From the NCBI RefSeq assembly GCF_025263485.1, contig NZ_CP079863.1:5270001-5334000 (forward strand): a DNA stretch of 64,000 nt, written 5' to 3'. Under the pieces are notes generated by a model, which saw nothing but the letters and a program-made list of their open reading frames with translations, did not search any database and was not told the DNA's origin. The position numbers and the translations under genes were made by a program. The DNA is from Mycobacterium sp. SMC-2. GTDB lineage: Bacteria > Actinomycetota > Actinomycetes > Mycobacteriales > Mycobacteriaceae. Of this stretch, positions 10,778-32,551 are shown piece by piece (the first letter of the stretch is position 1; each line of letters begins with the position of its first letter).

Positions 10778-10793
10778 GCGCTAGGGCGCCGAA

Positions 10794-10842
10794 CGTCGAG
10801 TTGTTGGGCGAATTCAGGCCGTTCCGGCACGACAAGTCCACG
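10794..10842. repeat. 49-bp palindromic element, copy A
   Basis: Arms CGTCGAGTTGT and ACAAGTCCACG (two mismatches in pairing) enclose 27 bp, preceded by GGCGCCGAA. It shares arms, 49-bp length and inner bases (ATTC..GGCC.TTCC) with copy B at 11761-11809. It ends 40 bp before the DUF559 gene start. Confidence 0.8.
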
Positions 10843-10882
10843 TTGGGCCGAGGGTGTCGGTGTCACCGGGCAGTGTGTCGGC

Positions 10883-11749
10883 ATGGGAAACCTGGGGTGG
10901 CCATTCAGAGGAACCGAAGCGCTGGCAGCCGGCATTGTCACGCCGCACCAATTGCGAACCAACTTCGAGATGGTCCACCGCAATGTGTACATCCCCCGCG
11001 GCCAGAAGTTGACGCCCGTGACCCGGGCGGTGGCGGCCTGGCTGTGGTCGGGCCGGACCGCGACCGTGGCGGGCCTATCCGCGGCGGCGCTACATCGCAC
11101 GGCATGGATCGACGATTGGTTGCCGGCCGAGCTCAACCGGACCAGCCGCGATAAGGCGCGTGACATTGTTCTCCACAGCGACACTTTGGCCGACGACGAA
11201 ACGTGCGTCCGAGATGGAATTTGCCTTACCACGCCGGCTCGCACGGCGTTCGACTTAGGACGACGAAAAGGCCTGACCGCGGCGGTGATTCGGTTGGACG
11301 CGCTTATGCGTGCCACCGAGGTGAAGACGGCTGACGTCGAGCTGCTGGTCGAACGTCATCGCGGGGCGCGCGGTTTGGTGCAGTTGCGACGGGCGTTGCT
11401 CCTGGCCGACGCAGGCGCCGAATCGCCGTGGGAATCCAGAACTCGTCTTGTGCTTGTCGGCGGCGGCTTACCACGGCCACAGACCCAGATCGAAGTACTC
11501 AACGAGTGGGGCGCAGTGATTGCGCGCGTAGATATGGGCTGGGAAGACTGCAAGGTCGGTCTGGAATTCGACGGCGCGCAACACTGGACGGACCCCGTCC
11601 AGCGAACCCGAGACATCGATCGGCTGGCCGAACTCGAGGCGCTAGGGTGGACGGTTGTCCGGGTCAGCGCCGACGTGCTGCGGCACCGGCCCGACGTCGT
11701 GGTGGCACGCGCCCGAAGGGCACTGCTCGCCGCCGGCTACCGGCTTTGA
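10883..11749 (+). CDS. DUF559 / Vsr-like nuclease-fold protein with AbiEi-like N-terminus
   Basis: 288 residues. The N-terminal ~90 residues resemble the AbiEi-type antitoxin/HTH region (GIVTPHQLRTNF, VYIPRG, AAALHRTAWI). The C-terminal ~100 residues match the DUF559/very-short-patch-repair fold: ESRTRLVL, an aspartate in ARVDMGW, the GLEFDGAQHW core, RDIDRLAELEALGW, and VVRVSADVL. These fit a PD-(D/E)XK nuclease site (Glu near 178, Asp near 216, Glu/Asp in LEFDG). The family is abundant in mycobacteria without assigned function. Bracketed by 49-bp palindromic elements. Confidence 0.75.
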   Translation: MGNLGWPFRGTEALAAGIVTPHQLRTNFEMVHRNVYIPRGQKLTPVTRAVAAWLWSGRTATVAGLSAAALHRTAWIDDWLPAELNRTSRDKARDIVLHSDTLADDETCVRDGICLTTPARTAFDLGRRKGLTAAVIRLDALMRATEVKTADVELLVERHRGARGLVQLRRALLLADAGAESPWESRTRLVLVGGGLPRPQTQIEVLNEWGAVIARVDMGWEDCKVGLEFDGAQHWTDPVQRTRDIDRLAELEALGWTVVRVSADVLRHRPDVVVARARRALLAAGYRL

Positions 11750-11760
11750 TCGGCGCCGAA

Positions 11761-11809
11761 CGTCGACTTATCGTGGCAGATTCGGGCCATTCCGCCCGAC
11801 AAGTCGACG
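11761..11809. repeat. 49-bp palindromic element, copy B
   Basis: Arms CGTCGACTTAT and ACAAGTCGACG (one mismatch) enclose 27 bp, again preceded by GGCGCCGAA. It starts 12 bp after the DUF559 stop and carries the last codons and stop of the convergent GST-like gene. Confidence 0.85.
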
Positions 11810-12841
11810 CTCGCGGGCAAAGTTCGGCACGCTGCGCTGGGCGCCGTGCCCGTCGGGCACCCGCTCCCCCTCGACCGGTGGCCCCGGAGGAGTTCCGCCG
11901 CCGAAGGGCCTGCCGCCCAAGGCCTCCCGACCATGCGGCGACAGCCAGCCCGCGAGGTCCGGCCCCTTGGGCACGATGCCGGTGGGGTTGATGTCGGCGT
12001 GCACGATGTAGTAGTGCTGCTTGATCTGCACGAAGTCGACGGTGTCGCCGAACCCGGGTGTCTGGAACAGGTCACGCGCGTACGCCCACAACACTGGTAT
12101 CTCGCTCAATTTGCTTCGGTTGCACTTGAAGTGACCGTGGTAGACGGGGTCGAAGCGGGCCAGTGTGGTGAACAGCCGCACGTCGGCCTCAGTTATGGTG
12201 TCGCCCACCAGGTATCGCTGGTTGGCCAGGCGGTCGCTCACCCAGTCCAACGCGGCGAACAGCCGGTCGTAGGCCGCCTCGTAGGCCTGCTGTGAGCCGG
12301 CGAAGCCACAGCGGTACACACCGTTGTTGATCTCGGTGTAGACCCGCTTGTTCACCTCGTCGATCTCGGCGCGCAACCGCTCCGGGTACAGCTCCGGGGC
12401 ACCCTCGCGGTGGTGAGCGGTCCATTCCGTCGAGAAGTCCAGGGTCATCTGCGCGAAATCATTCGTCACCACAGCACCGGACGGGACATCGACGATCGCG
12501 GGAACCGTGATGCCTTTCGGATAGTCGGGATAGCGCTTGAAATAGGCATCTTGTAGCCGCGGGATCTTCAGCACGGGGTCGACGCCCCCGGGATCGAGAT
12601 CGAACGTCCAGCTGCGTTCGCCGTGGGTGGGCCCGCAAAACCCAATGGAGAGAACGCGTTCCAGGCCCAGCAACCGCCGCACGATGATGGCGCGGTTAGC
12701 CCACGGACATGCGCGGGCGACGATGAGCCGGTACCTGCCGGGCTCCACCGGGTAGCCGTCGCGCCCGTCGGCGGTGACGCGGGTGGTGATGTAGTTGGTG
12801 TCGCGGGTGAATTCACCCGTCCCGGCGACGTAGGTGGCCAT
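11768..12841 (-). CDS. Glutathionyl-hydroquinone-reductase-type GST (YqjG/ECM4 family)
   Basis: 357 residues. The N-terminal thioredoxin-like domain has the family's catalytic CPWA motif at Cys45 and a conserved GPTHGERSW segment. The C-terminal helical GST domain contains EINNGVYRCGFA, TEADVRLFTTLARFDPVYH and FKCNR. The family reduces S-glutathionyl-hydroquinones. Mycobacteria use mycothiol rather than glutathione, so the natural thiol here is uncertain. The last ~17 residues are encoded by palindromic element B, so the C-terminus looks borrowed from the repeat. Copy C lies 28 bp upstream of the start. Confidence 0.85.
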   Translation of the reverse strand: MATYVAGTGEFTRDTNYITTRVTADGRDGYPVEPGRYRLIVARACPWANRAIIVRRLLGLERVLSIGFCGPTHGERSWTFDLDPGGVDPVLKIPRLQDAYFKRYPDYPKGITVPAIVDVPSGAVVTNDFAQMTLDFSTEWTAHHREGAPELYPERLRAEIDEVNKRVYTEINNGVYRCGFAGSQQAYEAAYDRLFAALDWVSDRLANQRYLVGDTITEADVRLFTTLARFDPVYHGHFKCNRSKLSEIPVLWAYARDLFQTPGFGDTVDFVQIKQHYYIVHADINPTGIVPKGPDLAGWLSPHGREALGGRPFGGGTPPGPPVEGERVPDGHGAQRSVPNFARERRLVGRNGPNLPR

Positions 12842-12868
12842 GGCGACAATTCTGCCTCACGGCCCCAA

Positions 12869-12917
12869 CGTCGACTTGTTGGCGCCAAATCGCAGAATCT
12901 CGCTCAACAAGTCGACG
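12869..12917. repeat. 49-bp palindromic element, copy C
   Basis: Arms CGTCGACTTGTT and AACAAGTCGACG are perfect 12-bp inverted repeats around 25 bp. Outer-end to outer-end length is 49 bp, as in copies A and B. It lies between the GST-like start and the fadE10 stop. The inner bases differ from A and B. Confidence 0.88.
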
Positions 12918-12932
12918 CTCGGCGCCACGGGC

Positions 12933-22744: not shown

Positions 22745-24394
22745 TTGACTGACGGCCCGTTGATTGTGCAGTCCGACAAGACGGTGCTGCTCGAAGTCGA
22801 CCACGAGCAGGCCGGCGCGGCGCGCGCCGCCATTGCGCCGTTCGCCGAACTCGAGCGCGCGCCCGAGCACGTGCACACCTACCGCGTCACCCCGCTGGCG
22901 CTGTGGAACGCCCGCGCCGCCGGCCACGACGCCGAGCAGGTCGTCGACGCACTGGTCAGCTACTCGCGCTACGCGGTGCCCCAGCCGCTGCTGGTCGACA
23001 TCGTCGACACCATGGCCCGCTACGGCCGCCTGCAACTGGTCAAACACCCGGCACACGGCCTCACGTTGGTCAGCCTGGACCGGGCGGTGCTCGAGGAGGT
23101 GCTGCGCAACAAGAAGATCGCACCCATGCTCGGCGCCCGGATCGACGACGATACGGTCGTCGTCCACCCCAGCGAGCGCGGCCGCGTAAAACAGATGCTG
23201 CTCAAAATCGGTTGGCCCGCGGAGGATCTCGCGGGTTATGTCGACGGCGAGGCACACCCGATCAGCCTGGCTCAGGAGGGCTGGCACCTGCGCGATTACC
23301 AGCAGATGGCCACCGATTCGTTCTGGTCCGGCGGCTCGGGAGTGGTGGTCCTTCCGTGCGGGGCCGGCAAGACGCTGGTCGGTGCTGCCGCGATGGCGAA
23401 GGCCAGCGCGACGACGCTCATTTTGGTCACCAACATCGTCGCGGCGCGGCAATGGAAGCGCGAGCTGGTGGCGCGCACCTCGCTGACCGAGGACGAGATC
23501 GGCGAATATTCCGGGGAGCGCAAGGAGATTCGGCCCGTCACCATCTCGACGTATCAGATGATCACCCGCCGCACCAAGGGCGAGTACCGGCATCTCGAGC
23601 TCTTCGACAGCCGCGACTGGGGGCTGATCATCTACGACGAGGTTCACCTGCTGCCGGCGCCGGTGTTCCGGATGACCGCCGACCTGCAATCCAAGCGGCG
23701 GCTAGGCCTGACCGCCACACTGGTCCGCGAAGACGGCCGCGAGGGCGATGTCTTCTCCCTGATCGGCCCGAAGCGCTATGACGCGCCGTGGAAGGACATC
23801 GAGGCCCAGGGCTGGATCGCGCCGGCGGAGTGCGTCGAAGTGCGGGTCACCATGACCGACAACGAGCGAATGATGTACGCGACCGCCGAACCCGAAGAGC
23901 GCTATCGGGTTTGTTCGACGGCGCACACCAAAATGGCTGTGGTCAAGTCGATTCTGGACAAGCACCCCGGCGAACAGACGCTGGTGATCGGCGCCTACCT
24001 CGACCAGCTCGACGAGCTGGGCGCCGAGCTCAACGCCCCGGTCATCCAGGGGTCGACCCGGACCAAGGAACGCGAGGAGCTGTTCGACGCGTTCCGCCGC
24101 GGTGACGTGTCCACGCTGGTGGTATCCAAGGTGGCCAATTTCTCCATCGACTTACCGGAAGCGTCTGTGGCCGTTCAGGTTTCGGGTACCTTCGGCTCCC
24201 GCCAGGAGGAGGCGCAGCGGCTGGGGCGGTTACTGCGGCCCAAGGCCGACGGTGGCGGCGCCATCTTCTACTCCGTAGTCGCGCGCGACAGCCTGGACGC
24301 CGAGTACGCTGCACACCGGCAGCGTTTCCTCGCCGAGCAGGGTTACGGCTACATCATCCGCGACGCGGACGACCTGCTGGGGCCGGCCATCTAG
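22745..24394 (+). CDS. ercc3: DNA helicase XPB (ERCC3-type)
   Basis: 549-residue superfamily-2 3'-5' DNA helicase. N-terminal damage-recognition-like domain, then Walker A LPCGAGKT (~residues 203-210), DEVH box near 297, motif III TAT, and C-terminal motifs VSKVANFSIDLPEASVAVQVSG and RQEEAQRLGRLLRP, given in pieces. The start is TTG 22745 (MTDGPLIVQSD) behind AAAAGGAG; no better ATG is available upstream. Homologue of Rv0861c. Bacterial XPB unwinds forked DNA and is linked to nucleotide-excision repair. Confidence 0.94.
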   Translation: MTDGPLIVQSDKTVLLEVDHEQAGAARAAIAPFAELERAPEHVHTYRVTPLALWNARAAGHDAEQVVDALVSYSRYAVPQPLLVDIVDTMARYGRLQLVKHPAHGLTLVSLDRAVLEEVLRNKKIAPMLGARIDDDTVVVHPSERGRVKQMLLKIGWPAEDLAGYVDGEAHPISLAQEGWHLRDYQQMATDSFWSGGSGVVVLPCGAGKTLVGAAAMAKASATTLILVTNIVAARQWKRELVARTSLTEDEIGEYSGERKEIRPVTISTYQMITRRTKGEYRHLELFDSRDWGLIIYDEVHLLPAPVFRMTADLQSKRRLGLTATLVREDGREGDVFSLIGPKRYDAPWKDIEAQGWIAPAECVEVRVTMTDNERMMYATAEPEERYRVCSTAHTKMAVVKSILDKHPGEQTLVIGAYLDQLDELGAELNAPVIQGSTRTKEREELFDAFRRGDVSTLVVSKVANFSIDLPEASVAVQVSGTFGSRQEEAQRLGRLLRPKADGGGAIFYSVVARDSLDAEYAAHRQRFLAEQGYGYIIRDADDLLGPAI

Positions 24395-24400
24395 CCGCGA

Positions 24401-24452
24401 GCAGACCCAAACTCGCACGAAAAGCGCTGAACTAACACGAGTTTGCGTCTGC
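24401..24452. terminator. 15-bp stem hairpin between convergent XPB and thiolase genes
   Basis: GCAGACCCAAACTCG (24401-24415) pairs with CGAGTTTGCGTCTGC (24438-24452) at 14 of 15 positions around a 22-base loop. It begins 7 bp after the XPB stop and ends 12 bp before the thiolase stop. Likely a bidirectional terminator. The element resembles intergenic sequences I associate with mycobacterial genomes in general, so it may be a dispersed repeat. Confidence 0.7.
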
Positions 24453-24464
24453 CCGCGCCGCTAA

Positions 24465-29722: not shown

Positions 29723-30346
29723 ATGGCCTCCAAGCACACCCTCTTTCGGATCTTCTACCGCATCGGCTTCACCCCGTGGGACGGTCATCCGATCGCACAA
29801 AAGCTGCGGGACCTGGTCGAGGGGACCACTGACGCGCCCGCGTTGCCGGTCGGATCGGCCCTCGATCTCGGCTGCGGCACCGGGGACTCGGCGATCTACC
29901 TGGCACAACACGGGTGGAAAGTCACCGGCGTCGACTTCGTAGCGAAACCTCTCGACAAGGCCCGGGCCAAGGCCGGCAACTTGCCGGTCGACTTCGTCCG
30001 GGCCGACGTCACGCGGCTGAGTCAGACCGGGATCGGCACGGGCTTCCAACTGATCGTCGACAACGGCTGCCTGCACAACATGAGCGACGCAGATCGCGAC
30101 GCGTACGTCCGGGAGGTCAGCGCGGTGGCCGCGCCCGACGCACGGCTGTTCGTCGTCGCGTTCCGTCCCGGTGGGAGGTTCGGCGTGCGGGGTGTCGAGC
30201 CCGCCGAGATGGAATCACGATTCTCAGCCGCATGGACGCTGTTGTCCGCCGGTGACGAGGGGGACCTCGATGAAGCACGGCTGAGTCGGGGAAATGCGCG
30301 CGAGCAGACCCCGGCGCGGTACTACCTCTTTGCGCGCCGCGGCTGA
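29723..30346 (+). CDS. Class I SAM-dependent methyltransferase
   Basis: 207 residues with motif I DLGCGTG (residues 48-54), an acidic end of strand 2 (VTGVDF), FVRADVT and the post-motif LIVDNGCLHNM. Small-molecule methyltransferase fold; acceptor unknown. It starts 24 nt after the second LLM gene on the same strand and is followed by a strong terminator, so it closes the three-gene unit 27609-30346. Confidence 0.83.
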   Translation: MASKHTLFRIFYRIGFTPWDGHPIAQKLRDLVEGTTDAPALPVGSALDLGCGTGDSAIYLAQHGWKVTGVDFVAKPLDKARAKAGNLPVDFVRADVTRLSQTGIGTGFQLIVDNGCLHNMSDADRDAYVREVSAVAAPDARLFVVAFRPGGRFGVRGVEPAEMESRFSAAWTLLSAGDEGDLDEARLSRGNAREQTPARYYLFARRG

Positions 30347-30406: not shown

Positions 30407-32551
30407 TTACGTCAGCGACTTCGGCGGCAGGAAGCGGTCGCCGTACTTGGCGGCCAGCTCGCGGGCCCGGGCCACGAAGGCTTCCTTGCCCGTACCGCCC
30501 GGACCGGAGTAGCCGACGATGAACTGCGCGCTACCACCGGTGTACGGAGGGAAGCCGATGCCCATGATCGACCCGATGTTGGCGTCGGCGGTCGACGTCA
30601 ACACGCCCTCGTCGAGGCACTTCTGCGTTTCCAGCGCCTCGGCGAACAGCATCCGGTCGATCATGTCCTGCAGCGGCGGCTGCGACGAACCGGACTTGAA
30701 CGTCTCCCGCAGGCCCGGCCACAGGCCGGTGCGCTTGCCGTCGACGTACTCATAGAAGCCCGCGCCCTTCAGCCGTGAGGGGCGGCCGATCTCTATCATC
30801 TTCTCCACGACCGCTTCCGCCGGGTGCGGCTCATAGGTGCCGCCGGCGTCCTCGACACCCTTGCGGGTGGCGACCGCGATCTTGTGCATCAGCTCCAGGT
30901 TGAGCTCGTCGGACAGCTGCAGCGGCGGCGCCGGGTAGCCGGCCTGCGACCCGGCGTGCTCGATGGACGCCGGCTCGACGCCCTCACCGAGCATCGCCAG
31001 GGCCTCGTTGACAAACGTGCCGATGACGCGGCTGGTGAAGAAGCCGCGGCTGTCGTTGACCACGATCGGGGTCTTGCCGATGGCCAGCGTGTAGTCGAAC
31101 ACCCGGGCCAGCGCCTCGTCAGAGGTCTTCTCGCCCTTGATGATCTCGACCAGCGGCATCTTGTCGACCGGCGAGAAGAAGTGGATCCCGATGAAGTCCT
31201 CCTGCCGCTTGACGCCGGTCGCCAGACCGGTGATCGGCAGCGTCGAGGTGTTGGACCCGAGCAGCGCGTTCGGCTCGACGATGTCCTGGATCTCCTGGAA
31301 CACCTTGTGCTTGAGTTCCTGGTTCTCGAACACCGCCTCGATCACGAAGTCGACGCCCTTGAAGTCGGCGGGGTCGGCTGTCGGCGTGATGCGGTCCAGC
31401 AGCGCCTTGCTCTTCTCCTCGGTGGTCTTGCCCCGCTGAAGCGCCTTGGCCTCAAGCTTTTCCGAGTAACCCTTGCCCTTCTGGGCGGCCTCGATGCTGA
31501 CGTCCTTGAGCACCACGTCGAACCCGGCCTTAGCCGACACGTACGCGATGCCGGCGCCCATCATGCCCGCGCCCAGCACGCCGATCTTGTTGATCTTGAC
31601 CGGCTCGATGCCGTCGGGGCGCGAGCCGCCGCCGTTGATGTGCTGCAGGTCGAAAAAGAACGCCTGGATCATGTTCTTGGCGACCTGGCCGGTGACCAGC
31701 TGGGTGAAGTAGCGGCTCTCGATGCGGCTGGCGGTGTCGAAGTCCACCTGCGCGCCCTCGACGGCCGCGTCCAGGATGGCCCGCGGCGCCGGCATCGGCG
31801 CACCCTTGAGCTGCTTGCGCAGCAGCGCGGGGAACGACGGCAGGATGCCGGCCAGCGCCGGGCTGGACGGGGTGCCGCCGGGCATCTTGTAACCCTTGGC
31901 ATCCCACGGCTGGGTGTGCGAGTCGGGGTTGGCCTTGATCCACGCCTTGGCGGCGGGCACCAACTCCTCGACCGAGCCGACGAGCTCATCGACGAGCCCG
32001 ATCTCCTTGGCCTTGTCCGGCTTGAACCGGGTGCCCTGAGACAGCACGTTCATGAATGCGTTCTGGATGCCGAACATCCGCACGCTGCGGGCCACCCCGC
32101 CCCCGCCGGGCAACAAGCCCAGCGTGACTTCGGGGAACCCGACGACGAGGCCCTTGACATCCGCGGCGATGCGGTGGTGACAGGCCAGCGCGATCTCCAG
32201 GCCGCCGCCGAGCGCGGCGCCGTTGATGGCGGCCACCACCGGCTTGCCCAGGGTCTCCAGGGCCCGCAGGTCGCGCTTGATCTCCTCGACCTCGGTGAAG
32301 ACGTCCCCGGCATTCTCCGGGCCGGCGTTGATCATGCTCTTGAGATCGCCGCCGGCGAAGAACGTCTTCTTCGCGCTCGTGATCACCACGCCGGTGACCG
32401 AATCCTTCTCCGCGACAAGGCGTTCGACGGCCTTGTGCATCGACTCCTTGTAGTGCTCGTTCATCACGTTCGCCGAACCGGTCGGGTCGTCGAGCGTCAG
32501 GGTGACGATGCCGTCGGCATCCTTGTCCCACTGAATGGTGTTCTCTGCCAT
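30407..32551 (-). CDS. fadB: Fatty-acid oxidation complex alpha subunit FadB
   Basis: 714-residue bifunctional beta-oxidation enzyme (Rv0860 about 720). The N-terminal crotonase domain has SAKKTFFAGGDLKSM and GAALGGGLEIALACHHRIA, cut to size, for enoyl-CoA hydration. The central NAD-binding domain has IGVLGAGMMGAGIAYVSA for 3-hydroxyacyl-CoA oxidation, followed by two HCDH C-terminal domains (NDSRGFFTSRVIG). ATG 32551 (MAENTIQWDKD) is conserved; the frame extends 11 codons upstream into fadA. It lies 4 nt after the fadA stop, forming the trifunctional complex operon. Confidence 0.95.
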   Translation of the reverse strand: MAENTIQWDKDADGIVTLTLDDPTGSANVMNEHYKESMHKAVERLVAEKDSVTGVVITSAKKTFFAGGDLKSMINAGPENAGDVFTEVEEIKRDLRALETLGKPVVAAINGAALGGGLEIALACHHRIAADVKGLVVGFPEVTLGLLPGGGGVARSVRMFGIQNAFMNVLSQGTRFKPDKAKEIGLVDELVGSVEELVPAAKAWIKANPDSHTQPWDAKGYKMPGGTPSSPALAGILPSFPALLRKQLKGAPMPAPRAILDAAVEGAQVDFDTASRIESRYFTQLVTGQVAKNMIQAFFFDLQHINGGGSRPDGIEPVKINKIGVLGAGMMGAGIAYVSAKAGFDVVLKDVSIEAAQKGKGYSEKLEAKALQRGKTTEEKSKALLDRITPTADPADFKGVDFVIEAVFENQELKHKVFQEIQDIVEPNALLGSNTSTLPITGLATGVKRQEDFIGIHFFSPVDKMPLVEIIKGEKTSDEALARVFDYTLAIGKTPIVVNDSRGFFTSRVIGTFVNEALAMLGEGVEPASIEHAGSQAGYPAPPLQLSDELNLELMHKIAVATRKGVEDAGGTYEPHPAEAVVEKMIEIGRPSRLKGAGFYEYVDGKRTGLWPGLRETFKSGSSQPPLQDMIDRMLFAEALETQKCLDEGVLTSTADANIGSIMGIGFPPYTGGSAQFIVGYSGPGGTGKEAFVARARELAAKYGDRFLPPKSLT

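Follow-up and report, generated by a model that had tools for sequence, protein, structure and literature searches.

The DUF559/MTES_1575 nuclease gene of Mycobacterium sp. SMC-2 and the two palindromes that bracket it (A and B, Table 1) probably form a small mobile cassette, consisting of a homing-type, EDxHD/Vsr-like nuclease with a palindrome at each end, whose arms we infer to be its target. More broadly, sequence comparison suggests that palindrome-bracketed DUF559 genes are an undescribed kind of small mobile DNA. The computed observations comprise the bracketing, the matching of palindrome type to nuclease type, the dispersal of the palindromes, a series of empty, solo and occupied sites, a modelled protein fold and its active-site residues. 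A literature search covering few subscription papers found no prior description of DUF559 genes with palindromes in Mycobacterium; similarly, among the matches listed for any of four arm strings, no paper concerned mycobacterial palindromes by its title.

The DUF559 gene and its palindromes in Mycobacterium sp. SMC-2

The window, i.e. the whole 64,000-nucleotide stretch of DNA analysed, contains the three 49-bp palindromic copies A, B, and C where the first-pass annotation had placed them (Table 1). Their common outer length of 49 bp holds for the core; the arms extend further out, giving full imperfect palindromes of 57-61 bp. Likewise, the GGCGCCGAA lead that the annotation had described in front of A and B is there, as the outer portion of the left arm, and C carries a diverged version of it. 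Alignment of 53 copies (A, B, C, and 50 from elsewhere) yields the arms CGAACGTCGACTTGTTG / CAACAAGTCGACGTTCG, separated by a variable centre some 20 bases long. A covariance model, whose training set also includes A, B, and C, scores them on the best strand at 53.9, 62.9, and 63.5 bits, respectively; they are its only strong matches in the window, where the next best score is 16.6 bits. When folded as single-stranded DNA, C and B perform better than shuffled sequences (z -4.1 and -2.5), and A no better (z -0.6). None of the three is followed by a T-run, and the two Rfam matches in the region, both below the gathering score, do not lie on a palindrome.

Table 1. Features of the Mycobacterium sp. 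SMC-2 window (positions in the 64-kb stretch)
Feature	Position	Strand	Description
Palindrome A	10788..10848	none	61 bp; 49-bp core 10794-10842
DUF559/MTES_1575 nuclease gene	10883..11749	+	288 aa; Pfam PF18741, PF04480; PADLOC AbiEi models
N-terminal half, aa 1-176	10883..11410	+	fold resembling AbiEi antitoxins; presumed to bind DNA
C-terminal nuclease domain, aa 181-286	11423..11740	+	EDxHD residues; Vsr-like modelled fold
Palindrome B	11757..11813	none	57 bp; core 11761-11809
GST-like ORF	11768-12841	-	357 aa; last codons extend into palindrome B
Palindrome C	12865..12921	none	57 bp; core 12869-12917
Palindrome of another family	24393-24460	none	solo, between convergent genes; contains CGCGAGCAGACCCAAACTCG

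Palindrome A is preceded by the DUF2771 stop codon (10 nt) and followed by the DUF559 start codon (34 nt), while B lies 7 nt past the DUF559 stop, between the convergent DUF559 and GST genes, the latter of which enters it. The palindromes had been proposed to punctuate the nuclease gene and its neighbour: A and B indeed bracket the former, but C is a solo copy, 11 nt past the stop of a fadE10-like gene and upstream of the GST start. In the GST-like ORF, most relatives align only to about residue 334, and this reading frame may have been lengthened by the insertion of palindrome B. The window also holds a solo palindrome of another, DUF559-linked family (Table 1), which differs by 7 mismatches in 36 arm bases from the one upstream of a DUF559 gene of M. 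lepraemurium (locus L175); random palindromes of the same composition gave 0 matches.

The window DUF559 protein matches PF18741 (3.6e-9, 37 bits, slightly below its cut-off of 38.2) and PF04480 (4.6e-6, above its cut-off), and the PADLOC AbiEi models match its N-terminal half. According to its modelled fold, the protein is composed of an AbiEi-like half and a Vsr/I-Bth0305I-like EDxHD nuclease. In agreement with the EDxHD class, the modelled protein has both the catalytic residues and the Vsr-like fold, and residues E184, D217, H234, and D244 of the nuclease domain are invariant among 46 aligned sequences. It has no match to Y1_Tnp (PF01797), matching PF18741 and PF04480 instead. The gene is a free-standing ORF between unrelated genes; no AbiEii toxin gene lies beside it, its neighbours being DUF2771 and GST.

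Pfam lists DUF559 as a protein of unknown function, and its genes are abundant. Among 7999 candidates scored, 4339 are database relatives of the window protein; PF18741 matches number 7-11 per genome in four Mycobacterium genomes, and strong DUF559 matches at least 3-14 per genome in the 14 genomes shared by the order sample and the genus sample (up to 16 candidates scored per genome).

Dispersed palindromes and their association with DUF559 genes

Sought beyond the window, the palindromes proved to be a family dispersed in Mycobacterium. When a public genome collection was scanned for exact matches to 20 fixed bases, 56 stretches emerged. Fifty come from Mycobacterium/Mycolicibacterium, and in 36 of these the inner length is exactly 47 bp. 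The other six belong to a Planctomycetia MAG, a Blastococcus MAG (two), Sutcliffiella (two, with T runs directly after the copies), and a cyanobacterial MAG; the two exact copies in the Blastococcus MAG are its only ones, and one lies about 60 nt upstream of a DUF559 gene. The exact palindrome was absent from viral contigs, and five plasmid records carry distant DUF559 matches. With the covariance model, E-values reach about 1e-20 in four genomes, which hold roughly 14-24 sites each (M. paraense ~24, M. kyorinense ~23, M. triplex ~19, M. lepraemurium ~14; both-strand matches halved, 150 candidates scored per genome).

The dispersed copies are found mainly at gene ends. We located 57 sites in M. 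kyorinense, M. paraense, and M. triplex relative to genes called by our own simple gene finder, leaving out six DUF559-flanking sites: 29 lie between convergent, 21 between tandem, and four between divergent genes, two at ends, and one inside a predicted gene. A stop codon lies within 30 nt of 49 of these sites, i.e. of 49 of the 50 with a measurable stop, at a median of 13 nt. Base-pair changes in both arms account for 169 alignment cells, versus 92 in shuffles, and 86% of cells pair. Since each site was aligned twice, once per strand, and the alignment was fitted to the structure, this covariation supports symmetry and is not proof of RNA folding.

The first-pass annotation had anticipated that the palindromes would cluster beside DUF559 genes. 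For the window type this had to be rejected: its model flanks at most 3 of 37 DUF559 genes in the four genomes, one of the three with a related palindrome type, which accounts for about 6 of some 80 sites. Most of the dispersed copies have no DUF559 gene next to them. This seemed a refutation, but the picture changed because other DUF559 genes carry palindromes of different sequence at equivalent places, and the idea was replaced by one palindrome type per nuclease group. In the unbiased set from these genomes (37 loci, two without a usable gene), 26 of 35 DUF559 genes have a repeat in their flanks, a palindrome upstream, or both, compared with 3 of 95 control genes taken from loci selected without regard to palindromes (Fisher 1.3e-16); this control supersedes another (11/128) that included some DUF559 genes and palindrome-chosen loci. 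The remaining 9 of the 35 have neither feature, which counts against a cassette.

Across 73 distinct DUF559 genes, which are not an unbiased sample, the upstream and downstream flanks of 52 match each other above the 99.9% level of shuffles, a level exceeded by 5.8% of cross-gene flank pairs. The upstream palindrome typically ends 30-45 nt before the start codon. Where it is present, the upstream neighbour is on the same strand in 50 of 64 cases and the downstream neighbour convergent in 58 of 63, settings in which solo copies are also commonest. In the downstream flank of L084, L178, L255, L257, and other loci, the nuclease TGA lies inside the palindrome arm (...CGAACGTGAGCTTG...); in several families the element thus supplies the stop codon. 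Sixteen loci (L193-L208) that are probably from other genera encode DUF559 proteins of 34-42% identity and have less regular flanks, with two-sided palindromes in a few (L198, L201, L204, and L208). In L201 and L204, these are short, near-perfect, and built around AAAATGGCCATTTT on either side of the DUF559 gene.

We then compared palindromes between genes (82 genes, duplicates and L011 dropped; match defined as a score above 16; ancestry ignored). Among non-syntenic pairs, a shared upstream palindrome was found in 2 of 2278 below 55% protein identity, 2 of 400 at 55-60%, 21 of 372 at 60-70%, and 9 of 24 at 70-80%; the only two pairs above 80% include L063, which lies at a contig end, and were set aside as evidence. 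The matching pairs stem from a handful of nuclease groups. The arms are not the same from one nuclease type to the next, and a nuclease type can keep its arms at a different chromosomal location.

Genus-wide counts were made for three types. The GAACGTTCCTTACC type occurs in 6 of 248 Mycobacterium genomes (10, 10, 10, 8, 3, and 2 copies) and in none of the other 242, the reversed-pattern control giving 0. All five genomes in which a protein search found a GAACGTTCCTTACC-flanked DUF559 gene lie among these six, ancestry being ignored; the gene-flanking copies are present by construction, through the choice of pattern, and the dispersed ones are not. The one DUF559 gene examined in the sixth genome (G151) is of another type. 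A third type, GTGAAGAAGAT, was found in 14 genomes (pattern control 0), of which only six have a gene-adjacent copy by coordinates, which counts against a cassette. Of three other nucleases from GTGAAGAAGAT genomes, that of G142 is accompanied by a near variant of the type and those of G029 and G030 by another type.

For the window type, at least 10 model matches (about five sites or more) occur in 14 of the 17 genomes that have a nuclease of 69% identity or more, compared with 24 of 231 genomes without one (Fisher 1.8e-10, ancestry ignored; 20 candidates scored per genome, counts therefore capped at 20 matches or about 10 sites). The 24 count against a cassette. Strict co-presence of palindromes and nuclease was rejected, because M. 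triplex and other genomes have many copies and no close nuclease at the window's locus. In M. triplex, a palindrome of the L101 type also stands alone roughly 30 kb away from its nuclease. The model matches in L259-L264 are not solo, as they adjoin DUF559 genes.

Empty, solo, and occupied sites

The annotation had also called for a comparison of empty and filled sites, which we made between species. The 30 genomes were chosen by hand to include many with palindromes and no close nuclease, a few with one, and some with none, and the site could be judged in 20 species. All three states, empty, solo, and occupied, were found behind the DUF2771 stop codon. The nuclease is present between DUF2771 and GST in three species; the covariance model matches both sides of it in L222, matches poorly in L217 (15 bits), and finds nothing in L218; the latter two count against a cassette. 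Five species have a solo palindrome (weak in L210), one has half a palindrome (L213), and ten have nothing. In the remaining species (L221, genome G143), two palindromes at 1969-2342 surround a short nuclease-like remnant. The ~240 bp between them begin like a DUF559 reading frame, and L221 is possibly a decayed cassette. Elsewhere, the 14 other orthologues of the nuclease with 69% identity or more all have a model match in their locus, and 11 of the 14 exceed 30 bits on both sides of the gene.

Where copy C lies in the window, eight species have an empty site. The site holds a solo palindrome in the window and in L210, and a solo copy of a related type in L227. In M. frederiksbergense (L232, L250), a related, apparently frameshifted nuclease gene lies at the copy-C edge of the GST gene, flanked by model matches of 44 and 31 bits. 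Genome G193 has a similar cassette (flanks 40 and 29 bits) with similar downstream sequence.

A candidate mobile cassette and the alternatives

The first-pass annotation had likened the locus to REP palindromes flanking a RAYT gene, with a DUF559 nuclease in its place. Two-sided palindromes, type matching, and the empty/solo/occupied series bear out this layout; however, dispersed copies do not generally cluster at DUF559 genes, and some genomes have many copies and no close nuclease relative. In the portions of PMC2817692 and PMC3733652 considered here, RAYTs are HUH transposases flanked by REPs. Similar to the REPtrons described there, a nuclease gene stands between two palindromes of one family (A and B in the window; the 52 of 73 genes with matching flanks), and the palindromes are dispersed outside genes, with a type that tracks the enzyme type. 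In contrast to the same descriptions, DUF559 proteins have an EDxHD/Vsr-like nuclease and an AbiEi-like half instead of an HUH/Y1 domain, and their palindromes measure ~60 bp, compared with 20-40 bp for REPs, and mostly lie right past stop codons, at ~14-24 copies per genome in the four genomes.

The layout is REPtron-like but the enzyme is not, its modelled fold placing it nearer to homing endonucleases. I-Bth0305I dimerises and has a target of nearly 60 bp, according to the part of PMC3943268 considered. With EDxHD homing endonucleases, the window protein shares the EDxHD residues and the Vsr-like modelled fold, and its gene is free-standing. As differences, the DUF559 gene was not seen in an intron or intein, encodes an AbiEi-like N-terminal half, and has target-like palindromes on both sides and many more dispersed in the same genome. 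On a stricter view, the cassettes could be a form of free-standing homing genes. The locus also differs from type IV toxin-antitoxin AbiE systems, as an adjacent AbiEii toxin gene is missing and the AbiEi-like half is fused to a nuclease. In integron gene cassettes, a gene is followed by attC, an imperfect palindrome of similar length; unlike attC, the DUF559-linked palindrome has a sequence common to solo copies behind host genes.

If A-DUF559-B is a cassette, it would sit behind the stop codon of a host gene, and palindrome C and the other dispersed copies would be solo palindromes of the A/B family. The AbiEi-like N-terminal half would bind the family-specific arms, with one of two protomers on each arm of the ~60-bp site. 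The nuclease domains would then make a nick or cut in or close to the variable centre. Repair might then copy the whole cassette (occupied state) or the palindrome alone (solo state) to new or allelic 3'-end sites, while recombination between the flanking palindromes would leave a solo copy behind. Binding, cleavage, and movement by the DUF559 nuclease on its palindromes are what we infer here from sequence. One objection is that a nuclease with ~20 cleavable sites in the genome that encodes it would be expected to do harm unless it is repressed or a nickase; the sites could be tolerated through nicking, through tight autorepression via the upstream palindrome, which may allow the DUF559 protein to repress its own gene, or through action on single strands.

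Palindromes that are simply host transcription terminators or 3'-end RNA hairpins such as TRIT, with DUF559 genes there by coincidence, seem to us unlikely. Such a role would fit the closeness of 49 of 57 dispersed sites to a stop codon, the 29 convergent settings, and the arm pairing maintained by double changes (169 cells versus 92). TRIT is reportedly a terminator motif of M. tuberculosis, described by Gardner and colleagues in 2011, and it may overlap some of these palindromes. The part of PMC3526491 considered mentions this M. tuberculosis motif and names the TRIT model, in keeping with such a role. However, the arms are conserved in sequence and differ by nuclease type, and 242 of 248 genomes lack the GAACGTTCCTTACC type. 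Moreover, other species can have nothing at the locus, A, B, and C are not followed by a T-run, and a palindrome upstream of the start codon is far commoner in DUF559 genes than in controls. The 3'-end position would nonetheless allow a host role in transcription ending, which may be the reason that copies persist. Since AbiEi antitoxins use inverted repeats for autoregulation, the palindrome could by analogy be an operator through which the AbiEi-like half represses its own gene, the dispersed copies forming a regulon. The AbiEi-like matches and modelled fold and the spacing of upstream copies from the start codon agree with this proposal, which we nevertheless consider distinctly improbable: the dispersed copies follow genes, with only 4 of 57 found between divergent ones, and a regulon leaves both the empty/solo/occupied states and the second copy past the nuclease stop unexplained.

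Dispersal and position are REP-like, as would be expected if another mover (a RAYT/HUH transposase or another IS enzyme) spread the palindromes with DUF559 as a passenger. Y1_Tnp (E <= 0.001) is absent from 14 of 15 palindrome-bearing genomes, the fifteenth (G073) having two, and RAYT was rejected as the mover on this ground; together with the tracking of DUF559 type by palindrome type, this makes another mover very improbable. Two-copy short repeats can arise randomly, but coincidence and a repeat-finding artefact are both negligible as explanations, given that 50 of 56 exact-scan matches fall in one group, E-values reach ~1e-20, and the pattern controls gave 0.

Returning to the mobile cassette, the case for a wider class is evenly balanced: the DUF559/EDxHD nucleases of Actinobacteria may, or may equally not, be the engines of a large unrecognised class of minimal elements, each subfamily carrying, recognising, and spreading its own ~60-bp palindrome to 3'-end landing pads. 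If so, the system would be REP-like yet lack an HUH transposase, tying homing-type nucleases to REP-like repeats through cognate palindromes. It would also explain many sequence-conserved palindromes at mycobacterial gene ends, as a rival or complement to terminator accounts of the hairpins found there. DUF559/MTES_1575 genes are common, and a cognate palindrome for each subfamily would provide an immediately testable DNA target. As a contrast to these palindromes, the window also contains a short hairpin of the classical terminator kind, AAAGCCCCCGAA...TTCGGGGGCTTT, between the convergent genes at 29723-30346 and 30407-32551.
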